This document shows positions 1,530-34,138 of a stretch of DNA of 34,138 bases, in pieces (the stretch's first letter is position 1; every line of letters begins with the position of its first letter). The stretch is from a virus: positions 1 to 34,138 of IMG/VR virus record IMGVR_UViG_3300023116_000162; one strand, 5' to 3'. The notes below the pieces were generated by a model. That model was given only the letters and a program-made list of their open reading frames with translations, was not told where the DNA came from and searched no databases. The translations under genes and the position numbers were made by a program.

Positions 1530-3671
1530 ATGGCTATAGAATTCGATACATTTCCAAGCGCTGGCGGCGGTGGATCCGTCGGCACATTACAACAAGTTAC
1601 CGATCAAGGCGCAACGACGACGACCAATATTCAAACCGCGCAAATTACTTTAACCGGTGATTTACTAGCAAGTTCAAATAATGCGCGAACAATCGGCGAT
1701 GAAACAAATCGTTTTATTACTGCATATTCTGACTTGAACGGTGCGTTAAGATTTAAAGCAAAAAATGATTCTGGGGTCGCATTAGTTAAGGGTCAAGCTG
1801 TATATATTAAAGGCGTTTCCGGAACGGTTCCGACAGTCGATAAAGCACAATCGAACGCAAGCGGAACAATGAACGCCGCCGGCCTTGCTTTAACCGCTGC
1901 CAACGACCAGGCGGAAGTTCAGATTATTACATTCGGAAATTTAAATTCGGTCGATACATCTTCATTTAATGCTGGCGATGTTCTTTATATTAGTTCATCA
2001 ACGGCCGGCGGACTTGTAAATTCAGCGCCGACCGGCGAAAGTAATTTGATTCAAAATATCGGCGTCGTTGTTCGAAGTCATGCGACCGATGGTGTTATTA
2101 AAGTTTCTGGCGCTGGTCGTTCGAATGCAACGCCGAACTTGGATAATAATAAATTATTTCTTGGAAATGGATCGAATCAAGCGGTTTCAACGGCATTAAG
2201 CGCGATTAACTTATCGTCGTTTAATGATGATTTAAACGCGTTAATTTCTACGAATAATTTAAGCGATCTTAACAACGCATCAACCGCGCGAACGAATCTC
2301 GGACTCGGAACCGCTGCAACTCAAGACGTCGGAACGTCGGCGAATAATGTTGTTCAATTAAACGCCAGCGCACAATTACCAGCGGTCGACGGTTCGTTAT
2401 TAACGAATATTACAGCGACAGATAGCACAAAGCTAGCGATCGCGAATAATCTAAGCGATCTTAACAACGTCGCCACCGCGCGAACGAATCTCGGACTCGG
2501 AACCGCCGCAACTCAAGATGTCGGAACAAGTGCGAATAACGTTGTTCAATTAGATGGAACCGCGAAACTTCCGGCGGTCGACGGTTCGCAATTAACGAAC
2601 ATTAGTCCGACCGGCGCTTTGTTAATCACGAATAATCTAAGCGATCTTAATAACGCAACGACAGCGCGAACTAATCTCGGACTCGGAACCGCCGCAACTC
2701 AAGACGTCGGAACGTCGGCGAATAACGTTGTTCAATTAAATGCAAGCGCACAATTACCAGCGGTCGACGGATCATTATTAACGAATATTACGGCGACAGA
2801 TAGCACGAAACTAGCGATCGCAAACAATCTAAGCGATCTTAATAACGTCGCGACGGCACGAACTAATCTCGGACTCGGAACCGCCGCGACTCAAGACGTC
2901 GGAACAAGTGCGAATAATGTTGTTCAATTAAATGGAAGCGCACAGTTACCAGCGGTCGACGGATCATTATTAACGAACATTACGGCGACAGATAGCACAA
3001 AGCTAGCGATCGCGAATAATCTAAGCGATTTAAATAACGTCGCTACCGCGCGAACGAATCTCGGACTAGGTACCGCCGCGACTCAAGACGTCGGAACAAG
3101 TGCGAATAATGTTGTTCAATTAAACGCCAGCGCACAATTACCAGCGGTCGACGGATCATTATTAACGAACGTTACGGCGACAGATAGCACAAAACTAGCG
3201 ATCGCGAATAATCTAAGCGATTTAAATAACGTGGCGACGGCTCGAACGAATCTCGGACTAGGTACCGCTGCGACTCAAGACGTCGGAACGTCGGCGAATA
3301 ACGTTGTTCAATTAGATGGAAGCTCAAGACTTCCGGCGGTTGACGGTTCGCAGCTTACAAATTTACCAAGTTCCGGCGGTGGCTTTACATATCAATCGAT
3401 AACGTCCGCATCATCGCCAGTTTCGGCGGTTGCTAGTTATCATTATTCGGCGGATACGTCCGGCGGTGCGATAACTGTAAATCTTCCGGCTTTAAGTGGC
3501 GTTACTGCCGGAACCGAAATCCGTTTTAAATTAAAAACGGCCGGCAATAATTTAACTTTAGACGGCAATTTAACGGAAACAATCGACGGAAGCGCGACAT
3601 ATATTTTAAGCGTTCAGAATCAAGCCGTAACTTGTGTATCCGACGGCTCCGGAAACTGGGAGATAATCTAA
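1530..3671 (+). CDS. Tail fibre protein with six 64-residue repeats
   Basis: This 713-aa protein has a unique N-terminal region (1-240) with a glycine-rich start (SAGGGGS) and a beta-rich section resembling those of many phage virion proteins. Next come six tandem repeats of about 62-64 residues (about 242-610), each beginning NNLSDLNN and containing ARTNLGLGTAATQDVGTSAN and LPAVDGS.LTN. A beta-rich C-terminal domain of about 100 residues closes it, with DGSATYILSVQNQ and ending SDGSGNWEII. The NLSDLNNxxTARTNLGLG element is a common phage fibre shaft motif. The protein probably trimerises into a fibre that reaches the host surface. AAGGATT lies upstream of the ATG. Repeat number could vary by recombination. 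Confidence 0.8.
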   Translation: MAIEFDTFPSAGGGGSVGTLQQVTDQGATTTTNIQTAQITLTGDLLASSNNARTIGDETNRFITAYSDLNGALRFKAKNDSGVALVKGQAVYIKGVSGTVPTVDKAQSNASGTMNAAGLALTAANDQAEVQIITFGNLNSVDTSSFNAGDVLYISSSTAGGLVNSAPTGESNLIQNIGVVVRSHATDGVIKVSGAGRSNATPNLDNNKLFLGNGSNQAVSTALSAINLSSFNDDLNALISTNNLSDLNNASTARTNLGLGTAATQDVGTSANNVVQLNASAQLPAVDGSLLTNITATDSTKLAIANNLSDLNNVATARTNLGLGTAATQDVGTSANNVVQLDGTAKLPAVDGSQLTNISPTGALLITNNLSDLNNATTARTNLGLGTAATQDVGTSANNVVQLNASAQLPAVDGSLLTNITATDSTKLAIANNLSDLNNVATARTNLGLGTAATQDVGTSANNVVQLNGSAQLPAVDGSLLTNITATDSTKLAIANNLSDLNNVATARTNLGLGTAATQDVGTSANNVVQLNASAQLPAVDGSLLTNVTATDSTKLAIANNLSDLNNVATARTNLGLGTAATQDVGTSANNVVQLDGSSRLPAVDGSQLTNLPSSGGGFTYQSITSASSPVSAVASYHYSADTSGGAITVNLPALSGVTAGTEIRFKLKTAGNNLTLDGNLTETIDGSATYILSVQNQAVTCVSDGSGNWEII
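2253..3366 (+). repeat. Six tandem ~192-bp coding repeats in the fibre shaft
   Basis: The codons for NNLSDLNN recur at 2253, 2445, 2631, 2823, 3015 and 3207, giving intervals of 192, 186, 192, 192 and 192 bp. The 186-bp interval is a variant unit lacking two codons (it reads SPTGALLIT where the others read TATDSTKLAIA). Copies are very similar at DNA level, with scattered synonymous changes, which suggests recent tandem duplication or ongoing gene conversion. Confidence 0.9.
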
Positions 3672-5331: not shown

Positions 5332-5616
5332 ATGCAAATATCTATTGATACGATGTTTCATATTATAGGATTGATCGGAACGATTATCGGCGTCATATGG
5401 TATGTATCGAATATTATATCGACGTTAAAAACTGATTTATCAAATTCGAATCAATTAAATTCTATTCAAGATAAACGTATTCAAGAATTAGAAGCGCGAA
5501 TCAATGACACATATAAAAATTGCCGCGATGGACGCGTTAAAATATGGGAGGACGTAAACGCGAGTAAATTAAAAATCGCGAAATTAGAAGGTATTAATAA
5601 ACAAGATACTAGATGA
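5332..5616 (+). CDS. Small membrane protein with coiled coil
   Basis: This 94-aa protein has one transmembrane helix at about residues 8-30 (MFHIIGLIGTIIGVIWYV), followed by a charged helical stretch with RIQELEARI that is likely a coiled coil. AAGGTG lies before the ATG. It is the last gene of the rightward late operon and its 3' end overlaps the tail of the leftward gene 5584-6012 by 33 bp. The topology matches small lysis-associated or XhlA-like proteins. A similar architecture recurs at 6373-6627, but I see no clear sequence homology between them. Confidence 0.55.
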   Translation: MQISIDTMFHIIGLIGTIIGVIWYVSNIISTLKTDLSNSNQLNSIQDKRIQELEARINDTYKNCRDGRVKIWEDVNASKLKIAKLEGINKQDTR

Positions 5617-6021: not shown

Positions 6022-6345
6022 TTAATCGTTACATTCGAATTGATATTCGAGTTTTTTATAGTTTTCAATCGCTTCTTTTACCTGGTCATTACATAAGGAT
6101 TTACACGTTTTTAATTTACATTCGCTCGTATATTTTGCGAGTTCATCGACATAATATTTTTGATTCTTTTCTTGATCGTCTAAACATTGATTAAGTTTTA
6201 AAATATCATCCTTACATAATGTTTCACGTGAAACATGACCATGATTTCGGCCGATGAAATAAACGAAGATGATTAACGCGAACAAAGCGCCAATCGGAAA
6301 AAGATTATTTTTAAAATCAAAATTTGATAATATGGACTTGAACAT
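6022..6345 (-). CDS. Cys-rich membrane-anchored protein (i-spanin-like topology)
   Basis: I use ATG 6343-6345 (107 aa). A TTG two codons upstream would leave only 3 bases to the AAAGG ribosome site, whereas the ATG leaves 9. The protein has one transmembrane helix (about residues 15-33, FPIGALFALIIFVYFIG), then a probable periplasmic helical domain with six cysteines, including CKLKTCKSLC. This is the topology of an inner-membrane spanin, though the Cys count suggests disulphides. Its gene contains a perfect parS site (6220-6235), encoding VSRET. The start is only 27 bp from the divergent gene at 6373. Confidence 0.55.
   Translation of the reverse strand: MFKSILSNFDFKNNLFPIGALFALIIFVYFIGRNHGHVSRETLCKDDILKLNQCLDDQEKNQKYYVDELAKYTSECKLKTCKSLCNDQVKEAIENYKKLEYQFECND
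6220..6235. promoter_or_regulatory. parS: Perfect chromosomal-type parS site (ParB-binding)
   Basis: TGTTTCACGTGAAACA at 6220-6235 is identical to the consensus parS bound by chromosomal ParB proteins of many bacteria. With flanking A and T it is an 18-bp perfect palindrome (6219-6236). It lies inside the leftward gene 6022-6345, near its 5' end. No ParA or ParB gene is visible in the genome. That ParB of the host binds here is inference. A second near-perfect copy sits at 27675-27690. Confidence 0.8.
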
Positions 6346-6372
6346 TAACAAAAACCTTTCGGAGTTGATAAA

Positions 6373-6627
6373 ATGGAATTTAATACAGTCGCTTCTATTG
6401 TTTCGGTCGCTGGCGTAATCTTCGCGTACTTTTCTTTTTTACGCGAAAAATTAAATCAAGCGGAACAATTCGGCGAATTAAAACAAAAAGTTCGAACGCT
6501 AGAAAATCAAGCTCAAACAAACGAAAATAGATTTCAAACGATCGAAACAAAACTTGATACAATACAAACAACATTAACACAAGTTGATACAAGCTTAAAA
6601 AATTTATTGACAAATAGAAATACATAA
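6373..6627 (+). CDS. Small membrane protein with long coiled coil
   Basis: This 84-aa protein has an N-terminal hydrophobic helix (about residues 5-22, VASIVSVAGVIFAYFSF), then a long heptad-patterned helix with alternating Leu/Ile and Gln/Thr (KQKVRTLENQ, RFQTIETKLDTIQTTL). GGAG lies 8 bases before the ATG. It diverges from 6022-6345 with a 27-bp gap, so its promoter would have to lie within that neighbour. The build is like XhlA or holin-accessory proteins. The function is not established. Confidence 0.5.
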   Translation: MEFNTVASIVSVAGVIFAYFSFLREKLNQAEQFGELKQKVRTLENQAQTNENRFQTIETKLDTIQTTLTQVDTSLKNLLTNRNT

Positions 6628-6673
6628 TAGTTTATTAAAATCGGTTTATTTTTATCATTTGCCTTTTTGTCGT

Positions 6674-6726
6674 TTAAGCCGGTCGACAATACATTTTTAT
6701 ATATTTAAAAATCCGGCTCGGCTTAA
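6674..6726. terminator. Composite hairpin between convergent genes
   Basis: TTAAGCCG (6674-6681) pairs with CGGCTTAA (6719-6726); alternatively AGCCGG (6677-6682) pairs with CCGGCT (6713-6718). Inside is an AT stem ATTTTTA (6693-6699) with TAAAAAT (6706-6712). It lies between the end of the rightward gene 6373-6627 and the end of the leftward gene 6723-7289, the right place for a bidirectional terminator. No clean U-tract follows, so efficiency is uncertain. Confidence 0.45.
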
Positions 6727-7289
6727 CTTAGACTTTCTTGTTCGTCTGTTATACGTTTTACATCATCCGCCGATAAATCCGAACATTCGGCTAATTCATC
6801 CGGCGCGTAAACGCTGCCGAAGATTTCTGGATATACTTCGCGGATTAAACCCATTGTCGCGCGTTTGACTAACATGACCTCCGGCATTGTTTTATAAGAT
6901 CGATTTTTATTAAATAAACCGCGCGTTTTAGCTTGTTCAATCGTGAATGTAAAAGTATGTTCCGGAATATTGAAATCTATTTCGTCGCGTCGCCTGGTCG
7001 CTACTGTCGCGACTTCCGCCGTTCTTTCAACGGTTCGAAAGTATGCACAAATTTTATTTCCGTTTTGATCGGTCCAATTTCTGACAACGCCTTTCGCTGC
7101 GTCGGTGTTTATAGTTGGTTTCATAATGAACGAAGTATTCGCCAGCGTTAACGCGACATTAAAATCGAAGTATTGACCAAATCGCAAAAAACAAGCGATG
7201 TTTTTATCAAAGTCCGCTGGACTATTCGAAAAGATTCGAATCGCTGCGAGTTGAGATTCTTGTAAAATTGCACTGTAATTTATATTCAT
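6723..7289 (-). CDS. RecT-like single-strand annealing protein (putative)
   Basis: This 188-aa protein follows the layout of phage RecT-like proteins: a small-residue N-terminus, a central strand-rich core (FIMKPTINTDAAKG, then KICAYFRTVERT, VATRRRDEIDF and a TFTIEQAKTRGL segment), and a C-terminal helical part MPEVMLVKRATMGLIREVYP followed by GSVYAPDEL. The KRA..LIRE.YP.....G.YxxDE pattern is the one I associate with this group. It would anneal single strands during recombination or replication. No partner exonuclease is visible. It heads the distal end of the leftward early block. The assignment is by motif memory and could be wrong at family level. Confidence 0.6.
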   Translation of the reverse strand: MNINYSAILQESQLAAIRIFSNSPADFDKNIACFLRFGQYFDFNVALTLANTSFIMKPTINTDAAKGVVRNWTDQNGNKICAYFRTVERTAEVATVATRRRDEIDFNIPEHTFTFTIEQAKTRGLFNKNRSYKTMPEVMLVKRATMGLIREVYPEIFGSVYAPDELAECSDLSADDVKRITDEQESLS

Positions 7290-10430: not shown

Positions 10431-10890
10431 ATTCATAAAATTTATCATCCTGGTAAACGATCAAAATATTATTTTGCATTAAATACCGGATACCAGCTTT
10501 CGAATAATTGTTACTAATTGGAACGACGACGCGAGTTATTCCGCAATGATGAATCATCTTCGCGCATGCTAGGCAAGGATTGACCGAAACGAATATCGTA
10601 CAACCGGATAACATGATTCCGCGTCGACTCGCGTTCGCTATGGCGTTTAATTCGGCATGATGACAACCGATTTCGGTTCGTGTTCCGGATTGAACTTTTA
10701 ATCGTTCACGATCGCAGCCGGATCGACCGCAAAATCGACTAGGTGATTTTCGCGGCGGTCCATTAAACCCGGCGGAAATTGGATTATTATTATGATCGAT
10801 GATAAAAGCGCCGACTTTATTTCGCGGACAAATCGACATTTCGGAAATTAAACGCGCGTGTTTCATCCAATGATCAAGCCATTTCGACAT
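10405..10890 (-). CDS. Deoxycytidylate (dCMP) deaminase
   Basis: This 161-aa zinc enzyme converts dCMP to dUMP, the substrate for thymidylate synthesis. The deaminase motifs are clear: HAE at residues 78-80 with catalytic Glu80, and PCLAC at 105-109, so zinc is bound by His78, Cys106 and Cys109. An upstream CGRSGC (about 54-59) and a second His before HAE fit the dCMP deaminase/ComEB group and its extra zinc site. AAAAGG precedes the ATG. It lies 66 bp downstream of thyX in the same leftward unit, so the two form a dTMP pathway. Its end overlaps the helicase loader tail-to-tail. Confidence 0.9.
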   Translation of the reverse strand: MSKWLDHWMKHARLISEMSICPRNKVGAFIIDHNNNPISAGFNGPPRKSPSRFCGRSGCDRERLKVQSGTRTEIGCHHAELNAIANASRRGIMLSGCTIFVSVNPCLACAKMIHHCGITRVVVPISNNYSKAGIRYLMQNNILIVYQDDKFYEFTSKLNGD

Positions 10891-11887: not shown

Positions 11888-12534
11888 ATACTAAAGTAAA
11901 ATCAAAAACAAAAACAATAATTCCCAAATTTACAAATTTATTGAAAATGAAAGGTGCATATGAAGCATTATTTGTTAAAGGTTATATGACAGAATTTAAA
12001 TATAAACTTTATGGAGAATACGAAGCGACCAGTGAAGAAAAATTATGCGCCGGGTTTATCGTAAGTAATAAAATCGAAAGTCATTCAAAAAAAGATAATC
12101 CTTGTTTGATTAAAATCGTACCTTCAAAAAGCGAATATTTAAGTCCGTATAAAATGTCAACAAAAGGCGCGACATTTAATAATAAGATTGATCGAATAAT
12201 TAAATATACTAACGTTACAATCATTATAAATTATAAATATTGGTCTAAATTAGACAATAAACAAAAAGGCGATTTCTTGATTGATCGTTTACCATTTCAT
12301 TTTCCAAGTAGAAAACAAGCATACGATCATATGATGAATGCGAAAAAATCAATTAAAGCTTGGAAAAAATATCAATGGGAAGAAGCTTGGACCGTTGATA
12401 ATAAAGGTAAAAAATGGCCGATTGGAGAATATAAAGAAATCGATTATCCGCCGGTTATTGATTTATCCAAGTTGGACAATAATTTTAAAATAGATCTTTT
12501 AGATCAAGCTTTAACTTTAATCTATGAAAAATAA
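11884..12534 (+). CDS. Hypothetical Lys-rich protein coupled to the RHH gene
   Basis: This 216-aa protein is basic, with 18 or more lysines in its first 90 residues, and soluble. It has an aromatic-rich second half (YWSKLD, then WKKYQWEEAWTV). I do not recognise the family. It overlaps the RHH regulator by 4 bp and precedes SSB by 9 bp, which suggests either a nucleic-acid-related early function or the effector half of a regulator-effector pair. Nothing in the sequence decides between these. It uses fewer CpG codons than the structural genes. Confidence 0.5.
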   Translation: MNTKVKSKTKTIIPKFTNLLKMKGAYEALFVKGYMTEFKYKLYGEYEATSEEKLCAGFIVSNKIESHSKKDNPCLIKIVPSKSEYLSPYKMSTKGATFNNKIDRIIKYTNVTIIINYKYWSKLDNKQKGDFLIDRLPFHFPSRKQAYDHMMNAKKSIKAWKKYQWEEAWTVDNKGKKWPIGEYKEIDYPPVIDLSKLDNNFKIDLLDQALTLIYEK

Positions 12535-26109: not shown

Positions 26110-28215
26110 ATGGCGAACGGCGGAACAATAGAAATAGACGTCGAATTAAGCGGCGCGAAAGACATAACCGAAGAATTTGAATCAATCGGTAACGCTGGCA
26201 AAAAATTAGCGTCATCAATGGGAAATACTAACGAAAAACTAGGCGAAGGAATCGACCAGGTCGGCGAAACGGTTTCCGGATTATTAAATTCTTTTAGAGA
26301 TTTGGGAAAAACAATCGGAAAAGTCGGAAAAACCGGCGGTGTCTCTTTTACTGGTTTAGTATCGCGTTTCGCTGGCGTTGTCGGCGCAGCATACGCAGCT
26401 TACGAAACATTTAATTTATTATCGGGCGCAGCGCAAGAAGCCGAAGAAAATACAGCAAATATGGCAGCGGCGGCGGCGGATTTAGAATCGAAATTGGAAG
26501 CATTATCAGAAAACGGAGTAATTCCAACTTCGGACCAATTACAAAAATTTTCGATTGCTACATTACGCGCACAATTCGCAAAAGAAAAGTTACAAAAACA
26601 ACTTGAAAAATTTTCGAAAGCTGCAATCAAAGATTATGAAGCAACGCAACGACTAGAAAAAGCTACCGAAGCATTATCGAAAGCACAAAACGCCGCCGTT
26701 CGTAATGAACGCGCGTTAATAGAAGCACGCGCAGAATTTCAACGCGCGACCGTCGCAAGTACAAAAGCAAATATCGCGTTTCAAAATTCCGTCGGTAAAT
26801 TAAGAAAAGAACAAGAAAAAGTTGACGCTGGAATAGAAAAATCCGGCAAGATGTTAAAAGCATTAGAAGAAACAAGCGCGGAATCATTACAAAGCAAAAT
26901 TAAAGAAAATGCGGCAAAATTAGAAGGTTTAGTTTTAGGCGAATTAGAAACTAGATTAAGCGAAGATCAATTTAAGTTAAAATCATTACAAGTTAAAGAA
27001 GATACAAAATTACAATTATTACAAGCCGAAAGAAACAAAGATAATCGCGACGCCTTAATGAAACAAAATGATGATTTGGCGATCGCGATAAACTTGATTG
27101 ATCAAGAACGCGCAGTTACGCGGCGAACAATGTTCGAACGTATGAAGTTGATGGAAGAAATCGAAGAAAAAAAGAAATCAGCGCGCGAAAAAGATAAACA
27201 AAATGCCGAACGTGCGAGAATGAGCGCCGAACGCGAAAGACAAAGACAAGCCCAGATAGAAATGCAAAAAGTCGCAGAACGCGCGCGTATCCAACAACTA
27301 ATTATTGAAAATCAAAAGGATTCGGAACAAAAACAAATTAAACTCGCTGTACTTCGATATAATACGGCGTTACAACTCGCGAAAGATAATAATAATCAAA
27401 GAATTATCGCGGAACTTGCATTTCAAAATGAATTAAAATCAATTCGTAAAACATTCCAAGCGGAACAAGATTCGCAACGTTTAGCAAGATTAGAAGCGAA
27501 TAAACAATTCGCATATGAAACCGCCGAATTCAATATTCAACAAATCGAAAACGAATTCGAACGCGAAAATCTTTTACTAGCTTTACAATATGCGCAACGT
27601 TTAGACGCTGCGAAAAATAATCAAGAACAAATAACAGAATTAAATAGAAGATTCGCAATCGAAAGACAAAATCTTGTTTCACGTGAAACCGATATCGTTA
27701 ATCAAAAGTTATCTGGCTTTTTTGGAAATATGGGACGTGGATTCGCCGAAGCGGCAGTCGGTGCGATCATGTTCGGCGATTCATTCAAACAAGCGACCGC
27801 GCAATTATTACAAACACTAGCGAAACAAGCCGGTGTCGAATCATTGATCGAATTCGCGAAAGCTGCCGCATTTTCTATTACCGCGCCACCGTTGGCGGCG
27901 GCACATGCGAAAGCCGGAACAATATTCGCAGCGGCAGCGGTGGCCGCCGGTGGCGCGGCTTCGGTTATGGGTGCCGGTGGCGGTGGCGGTGGCGGTGGCG
28001 GTGGCGCGGGTATTAGCGGAAATATTTCGCCGTCCGGATCACCTCAAACATCAAATATGATAGAACGCGAACAAGCGACCGAACAAACATTAGTATTTAA
28101 TGTTAACTTTTCCGGCGCCGTCGTATATGATACAAAGAAAGCGGCGGAACAAGCGTTAGCCGATCGCATTACAAAAATAATGAAACAACAACGACGCGGA
28201 AAACCAAGAGTTTAA
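26110..28215 (+). CDS. Tape measure protein
   Basis: This 701-aa protein sets tail length. The N-terminal 70 residues include a helical start (DITEEFESIGNAGKKLASSM); a hydrophobic Gly/Ala stretch at about 80-105 (VSRFAGVVGAAYAAYETFNL) follows. Long charged coiled coil spans about 115-500, rich in Ala, Glu, Lys and Gln. Then come a hydrophobic Ala-rich zone (IEFAKAAAFSITAPPLAAAH) and a run of glycines. A 701-aa helical tape measure would suggest a tail near 100 nm by the usual 1.5 angstrom per residue rule. The gene holds a near-perfect parS site (27675-27690) coding VSRET. Confidence 0.85.
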   Translation: MANGGTIEIDVELSGAKDITEEFESIGNAGKKLASSMGNTNEKLGEGIDQVGETVSGLLNSFRDLGKTIGKVGKTGGVSFTGLVSRFAGVVGAAYAAYETFNLLSGAAQEAEENTANMAAAAADLESKLEALSENGVIPTSDQLQKFSIATLRAQFAKEKLQKQLEKFSKAAIKDYEATQRLEKATEALSKAQNAAVRNERALIEARAEFQRATVASTKANIAFQNSVGKLRKEQEKVDAGIEKSGKMLKALEETSAESLQSKIKENAAKLEGLVLGELETRLSEDQFKLKSLQVKEDTKLQLLQAERNKDNRDALMKQNDDLAIAINLIDQERAVTRRTMFERMKLMEEIEEKKKSAREKDKQNAERARMSAERERQRQAQIEMQKVAERARIQQLIIENQKDSEQKQIKLAVLRYNTALQLAKDNNNQRIIAELAFQNELKSIRKTFQAEQDSQRLARLEANKQFAYETAEFNIQQIENEFERENLLLALQYAQRLDAAKNNQEQITELNRRFAIERQNLVSRETDIVNQKLSGFFGNMGRGFAEAAVGAIMFGDSFKQATAQLLQTLAKQAGVESLIEFAKAAAFSITAPPLAAAHAKAGTIFAAAAVAAGGAASVMGAGGGGGGGGGGAGISGNISPSGSPQTSNMIEREQATEQTLVFNVNFSGAVVYDTKKAAEQALADRITKIMKQQRRGKPRV
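27675..27690. promoter_or_regulatory. parS: Second parS-like site (15 of 16 match)
   Basis: TGTTTCACGTGAAACC matches the chromosomal parS consensus TGTTTCACGTGAAACA except for the last base. The 14-bp core GTTTCACGTGAAAC (27676-27689) is a perfect palindrome. It lies inside the tape measure gene. It is 21,455 bp from the first site in one direction and about 12,544 bp in the other on the closed circle. Confidence 0.75.
27976..28005 (+). repeat. Hexanucleotide tandem repeat (GGTGGC x5) in tape measure gene
   Basis: Five perfect copies of GGTGGC lie in a row, coding a glycine run in the tape measure protein. The period is a multiple of three, so slippage would change the number of glycines without a frameshift. 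GC content here is far above the genome average. Confidence 0.85.
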
Positions 28216-30543: not shown

Positions 30544-31248
30544 ATGTTAATATCTACCGCTTACGCATTGTTACCAGATAAAAAGTCATGTAATAATGGC
30601 GAAATTCTTTATGGTTCCGCCGTTTCTTCAATGTCGAACGCGTTAAATCAATTAAATTATGTTAAATTCTTAAATCGTACAAATTATCCGATTATGCGTT
30701 CGGCTTATTCTCAAGCTCATGTCGTAAATGGTCGCGATTATATGAACACGCGTATATCTGAAAGCGACGGAAGAATTACAAAAGGATATGTCGAAAGTCA
30801 TAAGCTAATAAGCGCGACTCGACTTGTTTCGTCTTGGATCGGCGTAATCTGTCAATATGAAAGCGGCACAACTTCGCAAGACTCCGGAAACGCGGAATTT
30901 TCGCCGGTTATCGAAATCGAAGTCGGTTTATTAAATGATTCCGGTTCCGGTTATTCACAAATCGCAATCGTTGATTACGGGATTCGATTCGATTCATCCG
31001 ATTCGATGTTTCTAACAAGCGAAACTGCGTCGCAATATTCCCAAACGTTTACAGTCGATTCCGGTTATATTATACCAGCGTCAACGCCAACAAATACGCA
31101 ACCGGAAGCGCCAAGACCGCTATATATTCCGGAAACCGTCGGAGCGTATCAAGCGCGCGGCGAACGCGTTGTTTTTAATATTTCATGCGAAGATTGTAAA
31201 TTAAAAAGCTTTTCAACATTCGATTTATATAGAGCTGAATTATCATGA
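30544..31248 (+). CDS. Tail tip protein 3 (unrecognised)
   Basis: This 234-aa protein is soluble, strand-rich and Ser/Tyr-rich. It shares the MSNALN phrase near residue 32 with the preceding protein and has two Cys close together near the C-terminus (SCEDCKL). It overlaps the large hub gene by 4 bp (ATGA). Likely a tail-tip component by position only. Confidence 0.55.
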   Translation: MLISTAYALLPDKKSCNNGEILYGSAVSSMSNALNQLNYVKFLNRTNYPIMRSAYSQAHVVNGRDYMNTRISESDGRITKGYVESHKLISATRLVSSWIGVICQYESGTTSQDSGNAEFSPVIEIEVGLLNDSGSGYSQIAIVDYGIRFDSSDSMFLTSETASQYSQTFTVDSGYIIPASTPTNTQPEAPRPLYIPETVGAYQARGERVVFNISCEDCKLKSFSTFDLYRAELS

Positions 31249-34138
31249 GTATAACGAACGATAACGCGCGTCGAGTTTTTGCGCTTGAAATTGCCGGCTT
31301 GATATATCGATATCATTCGATCAAGCCACCGGCAACGACTAATTTAAATTCGCTTATGATTGCCGGCATTTCATACGATGATAGCGAAGCGATAATTTCC
31401 GTCGGTACGTTTAATAGTTCTATTGATCCAGCCGGCGGCGTCGCGGAATATGGATCGGTTTCGATTGAATTATCGATTCTTAAAAATGGATTAAATAGCG
31501 ATCCTGGCGTTGTATTTGGTCGCATTGGTAAACGTTCGGATAATATCAATCGCGCAAATTTAGAAAGCGACATTACTTTTGATGCATTACCACAAACCAT
31601 AAATTTAGATTCGGATTTATCTTCGTTATCCGTTCCGCGTTTAATGCATGTCGGCGCGGAAACTTTTAAAGTAACTTCTTTTACATCGTCATCTATGACG
31701 ATATCAAATCGCGCGGTCGGCGATAGTCAATATCAATCACATAGAATAGATTCAAGGTCTTCTATGATTCCATTCGTTGAGGATCAAATATCAACTTTTC
31801 GCGGTCGACGTTGTAAACTATACGTCGCAAATCAAGACAGCGGCGGAAATGTCGGCGATTATACTTGTATTATATCCGGATTTATAGAATCGTCGCCATA
31901 CGTCGAAAACAATTCGACAATTAACTTGTCTATTATGCCGTTAACCGCGCTTTTAGATACTGAATTAAGCGACCAGCGCGGCACGTCTACATTTTTATTA
32001 CAAGATAAGCATTATTTTTTTAAAGGAAGATCTAATTCTTTCGAATTTGGTTCGGCATTTCGTAATAATTATATTATGCGTTTAGATAATGCACAACAAA
32101 ACGCAATCGATAACACAAAAACAGATATTGATTTAATGTATCCGTCCTATCCACTTGAACAAATATATGATGTTAATCGTCCGAACGGTCAAGATCAACA
32201 AGCGAGTTTACATCATCCGCGTTATCCGTTTATTCTTGGAAGTACATTCGAGCATAAAATTTATCCAACTTCAATTTCTGTTAATCCATCAACGGGTAAA
32301 GTTTTAATTACAGTTGATCATTCAATAACCGGAGCGACGCCGCAATCGACTTTAATATCAAAAATAAATAGTGACCCATACCGCGCGTATATCGAACCGC
32401 GTGGAGAAATAAAACGATTCAAATTAGCCGAAGATAGTCTAGTTGATTGGCCGGAAATTATAAATACAAAATTATCTACGATAACAACGCATACAACAAC
32501 CGACGGCGCATTTTCTACGTTTAGAATTCGTAATAATCAAGTTCGCGGTATAACATTATCAGATCATAGAAATAATCATGAAGGTTTATTGCATTTTTGG
32601 TATTCATCATCCTGGTATCGAATAAGCCGAAATTATAAATATAGGTATTGGAAAAATGACCAAATAGAAAGTAATGTTCGTTTATCAAATGTTTTACGCG
32701 TTTTTTATCCGCTTGATTTTTGGAATGATGGATCAAAACCGAATTATGCCGGAAATTCAAATTTAATTAGAACGATAGAATTTCCGAACGAAAGGTCGAC
32801 ATCATCATTTATAGATGTCAATATTTCGCCGGCTTATAAGCAAGCAAACGAACCCGGTATTTTATGCGAAAATTCTTTAAATTTGCCAACTTTCGCGACG
32901 GCTGGCGTTTATTACGGAATTCAAGTCGATACTTATGATTATGAAAGACAACGATTAAAAACGCTATATTATCAAGCTACACATGAGGAAGCTTTATCGA
33001 CGGGTGTTTTAATTCATTTAAGACAAAATCGAGAAAATGTTAATGAAGGTCATTTCGGCGATTGGATCGGAAACGAACGAACAATCGTTAAACGTGGCGT
33101 TTCGGAATATTTTGTTTCGCCGGCGGAAATCATGTTAAAAATATTACAATCCGGCGGCGGTGGCAATAACGGAGATTATGATAATTTAGGATTCGGATTG
33201 TCTATACATGAAGATAATATCGATATCGATTCATTCTTAAAAAACGGAACGCGCCAAATCGAATGGCTATCGCGCGGTTTTTCTGTCGATGATTTTAATC
33301 CGCGCGATTTCTTCGACTCATTATTAAAATCAATCGGTTGTATTTTGATCATGAAACGAAGTTCGGCCGGTGTGCCTAAAATCACATTACAATCAATCGG
33401 AACCGAAAGCGAAAGATTTATATCTGCGACGATTAACGCCGGCGATTGGCTAGTTGATCCGCCGCCGATATGGTCGACTTATGACGATATTGTTACACAA
33501 GTCGAAATAGATTATGACTGGAATAATGACGATAATAAATTTCAAGAAAAAGTCATTTTTAACAACCAGGAATCTATAAATAGATACGGTGGTGAAAAGT
33601 CAAAAATAAATATTCAATTATATGGATTAAGATCGATTGATATTGGCAGCGGTGCCGGCGATGCTTTTAATTATTTTCTTCCGATTGCGTCGCGAATTTT
33701 TAACACGTTAAGCGATCCGATGAGATTATGGAAGGGTGAAATCGGAACCGGTCAATCAATATTTTTAGATGTCGGATCATATGTTAAATGTAGTTCACCG
33801 CATTTTAAAGACATTGGCGACGAATACGGCGTTATCGATAAAATCGGAATGATAAAATCTATCAATCAAGAACTTATGTCCGAGGGTTGCGAAATCGAAA
33901 TCGTTCGCACTGGAATAAATGTTACAAATTGGAATTCGAGTTTACTTGTAACTTTTGTTTCATCATCTAATCAGTTAACAGTATCAACAAATACTTATTC
34001 CGATGACGACACCGCATTTTTTCAAGCTGGCGACGTTGTCGATTTTCTACCATTCGGCGACGAAGATAATTCGACGACCGGATTAACTATCGATTCGATT
34101 TCCGGATCGACTTTAACATTTACGGCCGCGCCTGGTAT
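31245..34138 (+). CDS. Large tail-tip/hub protein (runs across the circular junction to 266)
   Basis: From ATG 31245 the frame is open to the window edge and, joined at base 140, to TGA 264-266, giving about 1006 aa, the second-longest coding sequence after none in the tail: it is the longest gene here. The N-terminus (RRVFALEIAGLIYRYHS) and repeated beta-strand segments (DSAVISVG-like and FLDVGSYVKCSS, then YGVIDKIGMIKSINQELMSE near the C-terminus) fit a central baseplate or tail-hub protein that follows smaller tip genes and precedes lysis genes. No peptidase motif was noticed. Tail-hub identity is inferred from size and order. Confidence 0.65.
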   Translation, partial: MSITNDNARRVFALEIAGLIYRYHSIKPPATTNLNSLMIAGISYDDSEAIISVGTFNSSIDPAGGVAEYGSVSIELSILKNGLNSDPGVVFGRIGKRSDNINRANLESDITFDALPQTINLDSDLSSLSVPRLMHVGAETFKVTSFTSSSMTISNRAVGDSQYQSHRIDSRSSMIPFVEDQISTFRGRRCKLYVANQDSGGNVGDYTCIISGFIESSPYVENNSTINLSIMPLTALLDTELSDQRGTSTFLLQDKHYFFKGRSNSFEFGSAFRNNYIMRLDNAQQNAIDNTKTDIDLMYPSYPLEQIYDVNRPNGQDQQASLHHPRYPFILGSTFEHKIYPTSISVNPSTGKVLITVDHSITGATPQSTLISKINSDPYRAYIEPRGEIKRFKLAEDSLVDWPEIINTKLSTITTHTTTDGAFSTFRIRNNQVRGITLSDHRNNHEGLLHFWYSSSWYRISRNYKYRYWKNDQIESNVRLSNVLRVFYPLDFWNDGSKPNYAGNSNLIRTIEFPNERSTSSFIDVNISPAYKQANEPGILCENSLNLPTFATAGVYYGIQVDTYDYERQRLKTLYYQATHEEALSTGVLIHLRQNRENVNEGHFGDWIGNERTIVKRGVSEYFVSPAEIMLKILQSGGGGNNGDYDNLGFGLSIHEDNIDIDSFLKNGTRQIEWLSRGFSVDDFNPRDFFDSLLKSIGCILIMKRSSAGVPKITLQSIGTESERFISATINAGDWLVDPPPIWSTYDDIVTQVEIDYDWNNDDNKFQEKVIFNNQESINRYGGEKSKINIQLYGLRSIDIGSGAGDAFNYFLPIASRIFNTLSDPMRLWKGEIGTGQSIFLDVGSYVKCSSPHFKDIGDEYGVIDKIGMIKSINQELMSEGCEIEIVRTGINVTNWNSSLLVTFVSSSNQLTVSTNTYSDDDTAFFQAGDVVDFLPFGDEDNSTTGLTIDSISGSTLTFTAAPG
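34000..34138. repeat. Terminal direct repeat, right copy (circular overlap)
   Basis: This is the second copy of bases 1-139. Base 34138 corresponds to base 139, so the sequence continues at 140. Both mismatches would be missense in the tail gene: Asp here versus His at codon 6-8, and Pro here versus His at codon 132-134. Because the error near each end is probably local, the Asp of this copy and the His of the left copy are the likelier true residues. Confidence 0.9.

Follow-up and report, generated by a model that had tools for sequence, protein, structure and literature searches.

Chromosomal-type parS palindromes within genes of a phage without recognisable ParA and ParB, and in other viral contigs

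Gene content of the phage and its two parS sites

The stretch of DNA analysed here (the window) is a 34,138-bp IMG/VR record, a metagenomic contig in which genes are recognised for terminase, a Mu-type portal, a protease, a tape measure protein, SSB, an O-like replication protein, a DnaC-like loader, RecT, a ThyX-type thymidylate synthase, dCMP deaminase and a C5 cytosine methylase. A 964-aa open frame leaves its right end (31245-34136; also 1-262), and in relatives the corresponding neighbours are separated by a gap of about 3 kb, which suggests that the record is an almost complete genome in circularly permuted form. The tail-fibre-like gene at 1530-3671 contains several near-identical internal repeats (NNLSDLNNVATARTNLGLGTAATQDVGTSANNVVQL...), as do many phage fibres. 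Searches of isolated phages with a window segment at the nucleotide level, or with the terminase protein, returned no match, and the portal is only about 25% identical to those of actinobacteriophages and others. An Rz-like spanin homologue (5332-5616, plus strand; PHROG 739, E 2.8e-6) points tentatively to a host that has an outer membrane. The sole match in a scan of a genome collection was a 15-kb contig binned in a MAG called Rhodospirillaceae, and this single binned contig was not accepted as proof of the host.

Two parS-type sites lie in this genome, at the places given by the original prediction. The first, at 6220-6235, is a perfect chromosomal-type site, its 16 bp (TGTTTCACGTGAAACA) being identical to the consensus parS of ParB biochemistry and of the ParB–parS co-crystal, which has a core of 14 bp (PMC7383237); it is embedded in an 18-bp perfect palindrome (6219-6236), and it matches the co-crystal oligonucleotide GATGTTTCACGTGAAACATC over 18 bp (PMC7383237). 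The second, TGTTTCACGTGAAACC at 27675-27690, carries one mismatch at the outermost base and keeps the 14-bp core GTTTCACGTGAAAC intact (27676-27689). Besides the sites at 6220 and 27675, no further match was found in the window at three mismatches or fewer, a loose threshold at which 0.28 matches are expected in the shuffled window sequence, and the hexamer CACGTG occurs just twice in the window, each time as the core of one of these sites. Chromosomal parS differs in its setting, since the window sites are placed in coding DNA of a phage genome and not near oriC. Both are in coding frames, as had also been proposed, and each is translated VSRET: the first in a small membrane-protein-like gene (6022-6351, minus strand, 109 aa), where this peptide sits after a hydrophobic stretch, and the second in the tape measure protein gene (26110-28215, plus strand). 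A methylase recognition site and a phage repressor operator were also considered for the palindrome and found no support.

Markov models of order 1-3 built from the window give an expectation of 8e-7 to 1.1e-5 exact sites, and of 1.4e-4 to 6e-4 sites with one mismatch or fewer, the latter in agreement with the earlier estimate of about 0.0004. In 3000 synonymous redraws with the window proteins fixed, one exact site appeared in 25 runs, and a 14-bp core was present in 5% of the redraws and never twice in the same one. The claim that two such sites are not due to chance is thus borne out by both approaches. The proposed lack of partition genes holds as well: with positive controls, profile searches found no match to ParB_N (PF02195) in the window or in 23 relatives, and none to AAA_31 (PF13614, ParA-type) in the window, and in 16 family genomes no ParA-type ATPase was found above the cut-off, with one record below it. 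Phage_integrase (PF00589), the profile of integrases of the tyrosine type, had no match in the window and 15 relatives.

Distribution of parS among relatives and its effect on protein sequence

Relatives were gathered with the terminase, the tape measure protein, the 109-aa protein and the reductase described below as queries, which yielded more than 100 related contigs. Exact parS is present in G005, G028 and three fragments (L249, L251 and L257), and G026/L204, near-identical to the window, retains the tape measure site. The search of related genomes, which the original prediction had suggested, thus showed exact parS in some of them at other places, and about 17 of some 20 near-complete relatives (contigs >31 kb) have no site at two mismatches or fewer. 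Because most relatives lack it, the site is, on the contigs compared, optional in this phage group and not a conserved trait, and its function would therefore be either dispensable or host-specific. The exact sites occupy three unrelated positions, every one between the lysis genes and recT, in a segment bordered on the left by the Rz-like spanin gene and on the right by the gene for the RecT-like annealing protein (6723-7289, minus strand). Of 300 permuted palindromes with the base composition of parS, none had an exact match in 1.03 Mb of relatives. A further palindrome, TGCTTCACGTGAAGCA, was observed in G133 (L434) at 12319-12334; it is perfect, differs from parS by two symmetric changes, lies in a frame reading ASREA in what appears from sequence to be the terminase small-subunit region, and is possibly a host-specific parS variant.

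In relatives, a class II (adenosylcobalamin-dependent) ribonucleotide reductase (RNR) gene is found between the genes corresponding to those at 6627 and 6723. The window is without the reductase at 6627-6723, and carries parS in the adjoining small gene instead. Four contigs (G005/L248, L249, G028/L250 and L251) have parS at about codon 500 of the RNR, where it is translated GSVSRETS, and the remaining RNR relatives read [IL]TRE[DS][DS] or other residues there. The RNR of G004 and that of G005 share 97% identity in protein and 93% in DNA; parS is present in G005 only, G004 reads ITRESS at this codon, and the stretch around parS is the one of lowest similarity in their alignment. In L257, an exact parS is located instead near the start of the RNR, with DKDVSRETW against GRESW or GRETW in homologues, and the position around codon 500 is an ordinary LTREDD. 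When the three distinct parS-bearing RNR genes are aligned, 65% of the columns are identical in all three, and the longest identical run, 23 nt (GGAAGTGTTTCACGTGAAACATC), consists of parS and seven flanking bases. G005 and G028 share a tract of 23-25 bp at the RNR site, and a single event, carried from one to the other by recombination, may thus account for both of their sites.

Outside the reductase, homologues of the 109-aa protein have FIPKEK, FIPADV and similar at the position of the first window site, and tape measure homologues have NRET, NSET, TNES and others at that of the second. Since the latter already read NRET or NSET, the second window site taken singly is weaker evidence than the first. 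From these comparisons, parS appears often to arise where the protein nearly has R-E-T, the protein being altered to complete the palindrome. Relatives keeping VSRET after loss of the palindrome, which would have refuted the original prediction, were not encountered; FIPKEK, NRET and ITRES were found instead, and homologues without the palindrome are also without VSRET, which agrees with the proposed constraint of a DNA signal on the protein. Because of this joint absence, of the coincidence of the longest identical RNR run with parS, and of the outcome of the synonymous redraws, the sites show signs of having been selected as DNA and not as protein.

parS in other viral contigs and in the phi29 family

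In a scan of the viral collection, exact parS was present in at least 120 contigs, compared with 5 contigs in the whole collection for the matched palindrome TTGTTCACGTGAACAA and 94, both strands counted, for TGTTTCACGAGAAACA, a one-base variant that is not palindromic and likewise encodes VSRET; the excess over this variant is only at least 2.5-fold, a lower bound. As none of the five family parS contigs known from other searches was among the matches listed, these probably reflect under half of the viral collection (0.55^5 = 0.05), and the true number of viral contigs with parS is, by this rough reckoning, likely to be above 250. A ParB_N match was obtained in 2 of the 88 parS contigs tested (88 of the at least 120 matches listed), the other 86 being without ParB, and the sites fall within genes as different as those for primase, head-tail connector, scaffold, tail fibre, endolysin and DarB-like antirestriction protein. 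Two or more exact sites were found in 17 of 120 parS contigs among the matches listed, versus 0 of 94 for the variant. Some parS records may be host DNA misassigned as viral. Three to five exact sites inside a few kb are observed in L018, L045, L054, L064 and L011, contigs that may be either genuine phages with several sites or stretches of a chromosomal origin taken for viral DNA. In L044 (6704-6779), a 437-aa protein contains the tandemly repeated peptide NVSRETSFNF, and two parS copies stand there 60 bp apart. A search of the available literature found no paper on phages with host-type parS and without ParB.

The closest known case is that of phi29, a virulent phage whose genome entrapment in spores was reported to depend on host Spo0J (ParB) (Meijer et al. 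2005, as cited in PMC9437464). The phi29 genome (L330) carries four TGTTCCACGTGAAACA-type sites, at 10445, 15903, 17243 and 18760, and exact parS is found in the phi29-family phages B103, Goe1 and Chedec 11; the Bacillus phage Goe1 was also among the viral parS matches listed. The TGTTCCACGTGAAACA-type sites fit the B. subtilis consensus TGTTNCACGTGAAACA. Each of the phi29-family genomes L330, L331, L332, L333 and L334 has 2-4 parS-type sites, several at matching places (the endolysin gene and the connector/lower-collar junction). The window phage resembles phi29 and its relatives (PZA, B103, Goe1, Chedec 11) in that all are small phages with host-type parS on the genome and no phage-encoded ParA or ParB recognised or annotated, and in that several of the phi29-family sites are inside genes, the one in the endolysin linker of Goe1 reading VSRET. 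It differs in belonging to an unrelated lineage (Mu-type portal, tape measure) and in having relatives most of which are without sites; moreover, the Rz-like spanin hints at an outer-membrane host, which would make spores unlikely.

Two other types of system are comparable in part. Phage-plasmids with their own ParABS, such as P1 and the mycobacteriophages with parABS, also use ParB–parS for extrachromosomal inheritance, but they encode ParA and ParB and have their own parS, whereas the window phage has neither parA nor parB. In the co-option of host regulators through LexA, Spo0A or CtrA sites (PMC9437464), phages likewise carry sites for a host protein that they do not encode; here, in contrast, the protein would be a centromere-binding one and the sites are within open reading frames.

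Candidate roles of host ParB on the phage genome

Once bound to parS, ParB closes into a CTP-dependent clamp that spreads into the flanking DNA and engages host ParA and SMC. The window sites are, on balance, likely to be cis-acting parS centromeres kept so that host ParB loads onto the phage genome, and the phage probably recruits host ParB, because relatives have acquired parS at other places. Loading of host ParB onto the phage DNA at parS would follow from known ParB biology and from the phi29 case. Its most likely use would be the placing and partitioning of phage DNA alongside the host chromosome during delayed lysis, that is, in a carrier or pseudolysogenic state, as has been described for phi29 in sporulating Bacillus. 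The gain to the phage may be partition, positioning, compaction or titration.

The same sequence evidence would also fit a decoy, in which parS on the replicating phage titrates host ParB and thereby stalls host segregation or frees resources, the phage itself not being partitioned. During replication, parS on the phage copies would come to outnumber the few chromosomal sites, and such a role needs no dedicated positions, in keeping with the varying positions of the sites; nevertheless, the loss of ParB is mild in many species, which makes the benefit doubtful, a pair of sites on each genome is a small number for titration, and phi29 indicates retention of DNA instead (PMC9437464), so that titration as the main purpose is considered unlikely. 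Regulation, in which ParB would spread from parS and, at an early stage of infection, repress or insulate the phage genes nearby, is suggested by the confinement of the exact sites, in three different positions, to the lysis–recT segment, and ParB of Pseudomonas aeruginosa has been reported to repress promoters adjoining high-affinity parS (PMC5521831). The sites, however, are not at promoters but inside the coding frames of genes unrelated to one another, and the second window site lies 12-21 kb off, in the gene for the tape measure protein, which leaves a regulatory role rather improbable.

A coincidence, by which proteins favour VSRET and their codons happen to form the palindrome, is already disfavoured and has very little probability: RET or RES is indeed present in RNR and tape measure homologues, and one core or more arose in 5% of the redraws, but VSRET is not kept by homologues, it recurs in unrelated proteins with identical codons each time, two cores never arose in the redraws, and the permuted palindromes had no exact match in relatives. 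Recognition of the palindrome by another protein, such as a phage repressor or a replication or methylation factor, is highly improbable too, for although the phage encodes a C5-cytosine methylase, an O-like replication protein and small genes without assigned function, the site matches the ParB consensus exactly (PMC7383237), is found again in phage groups of other descent, among them Bacillus phages that lack those genes, and has no apparent phage-encoded reader common to these groups.

With recruitment of host ParB as the preferred reading, phi29 already provides a case of a phage that lacks ParAB and uses the ParB of its host, and the newest part is the excess of parS across ParB-less phages. 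The broader proposition, that phages without partition genes repeatedly evolve exact host parS inside genes, bending the protein, and that this is a widespread route to handling by host ParB, and thence by ParA and SMC, far beyond phi29 spore entrapment, seems to us evenly poised between right and wrong. A DNA signal appears to shape phage protein sequence. If host ParB does load, chromosome-segregation proteins would count among the host factors of phages in general, and would no longer be a curiosity of Bacillus sporulation; carrier-state or partitioned infections by phages called virulent could then be predicted from sequence through these sites, which would also give a handle on pseudolysogeny.
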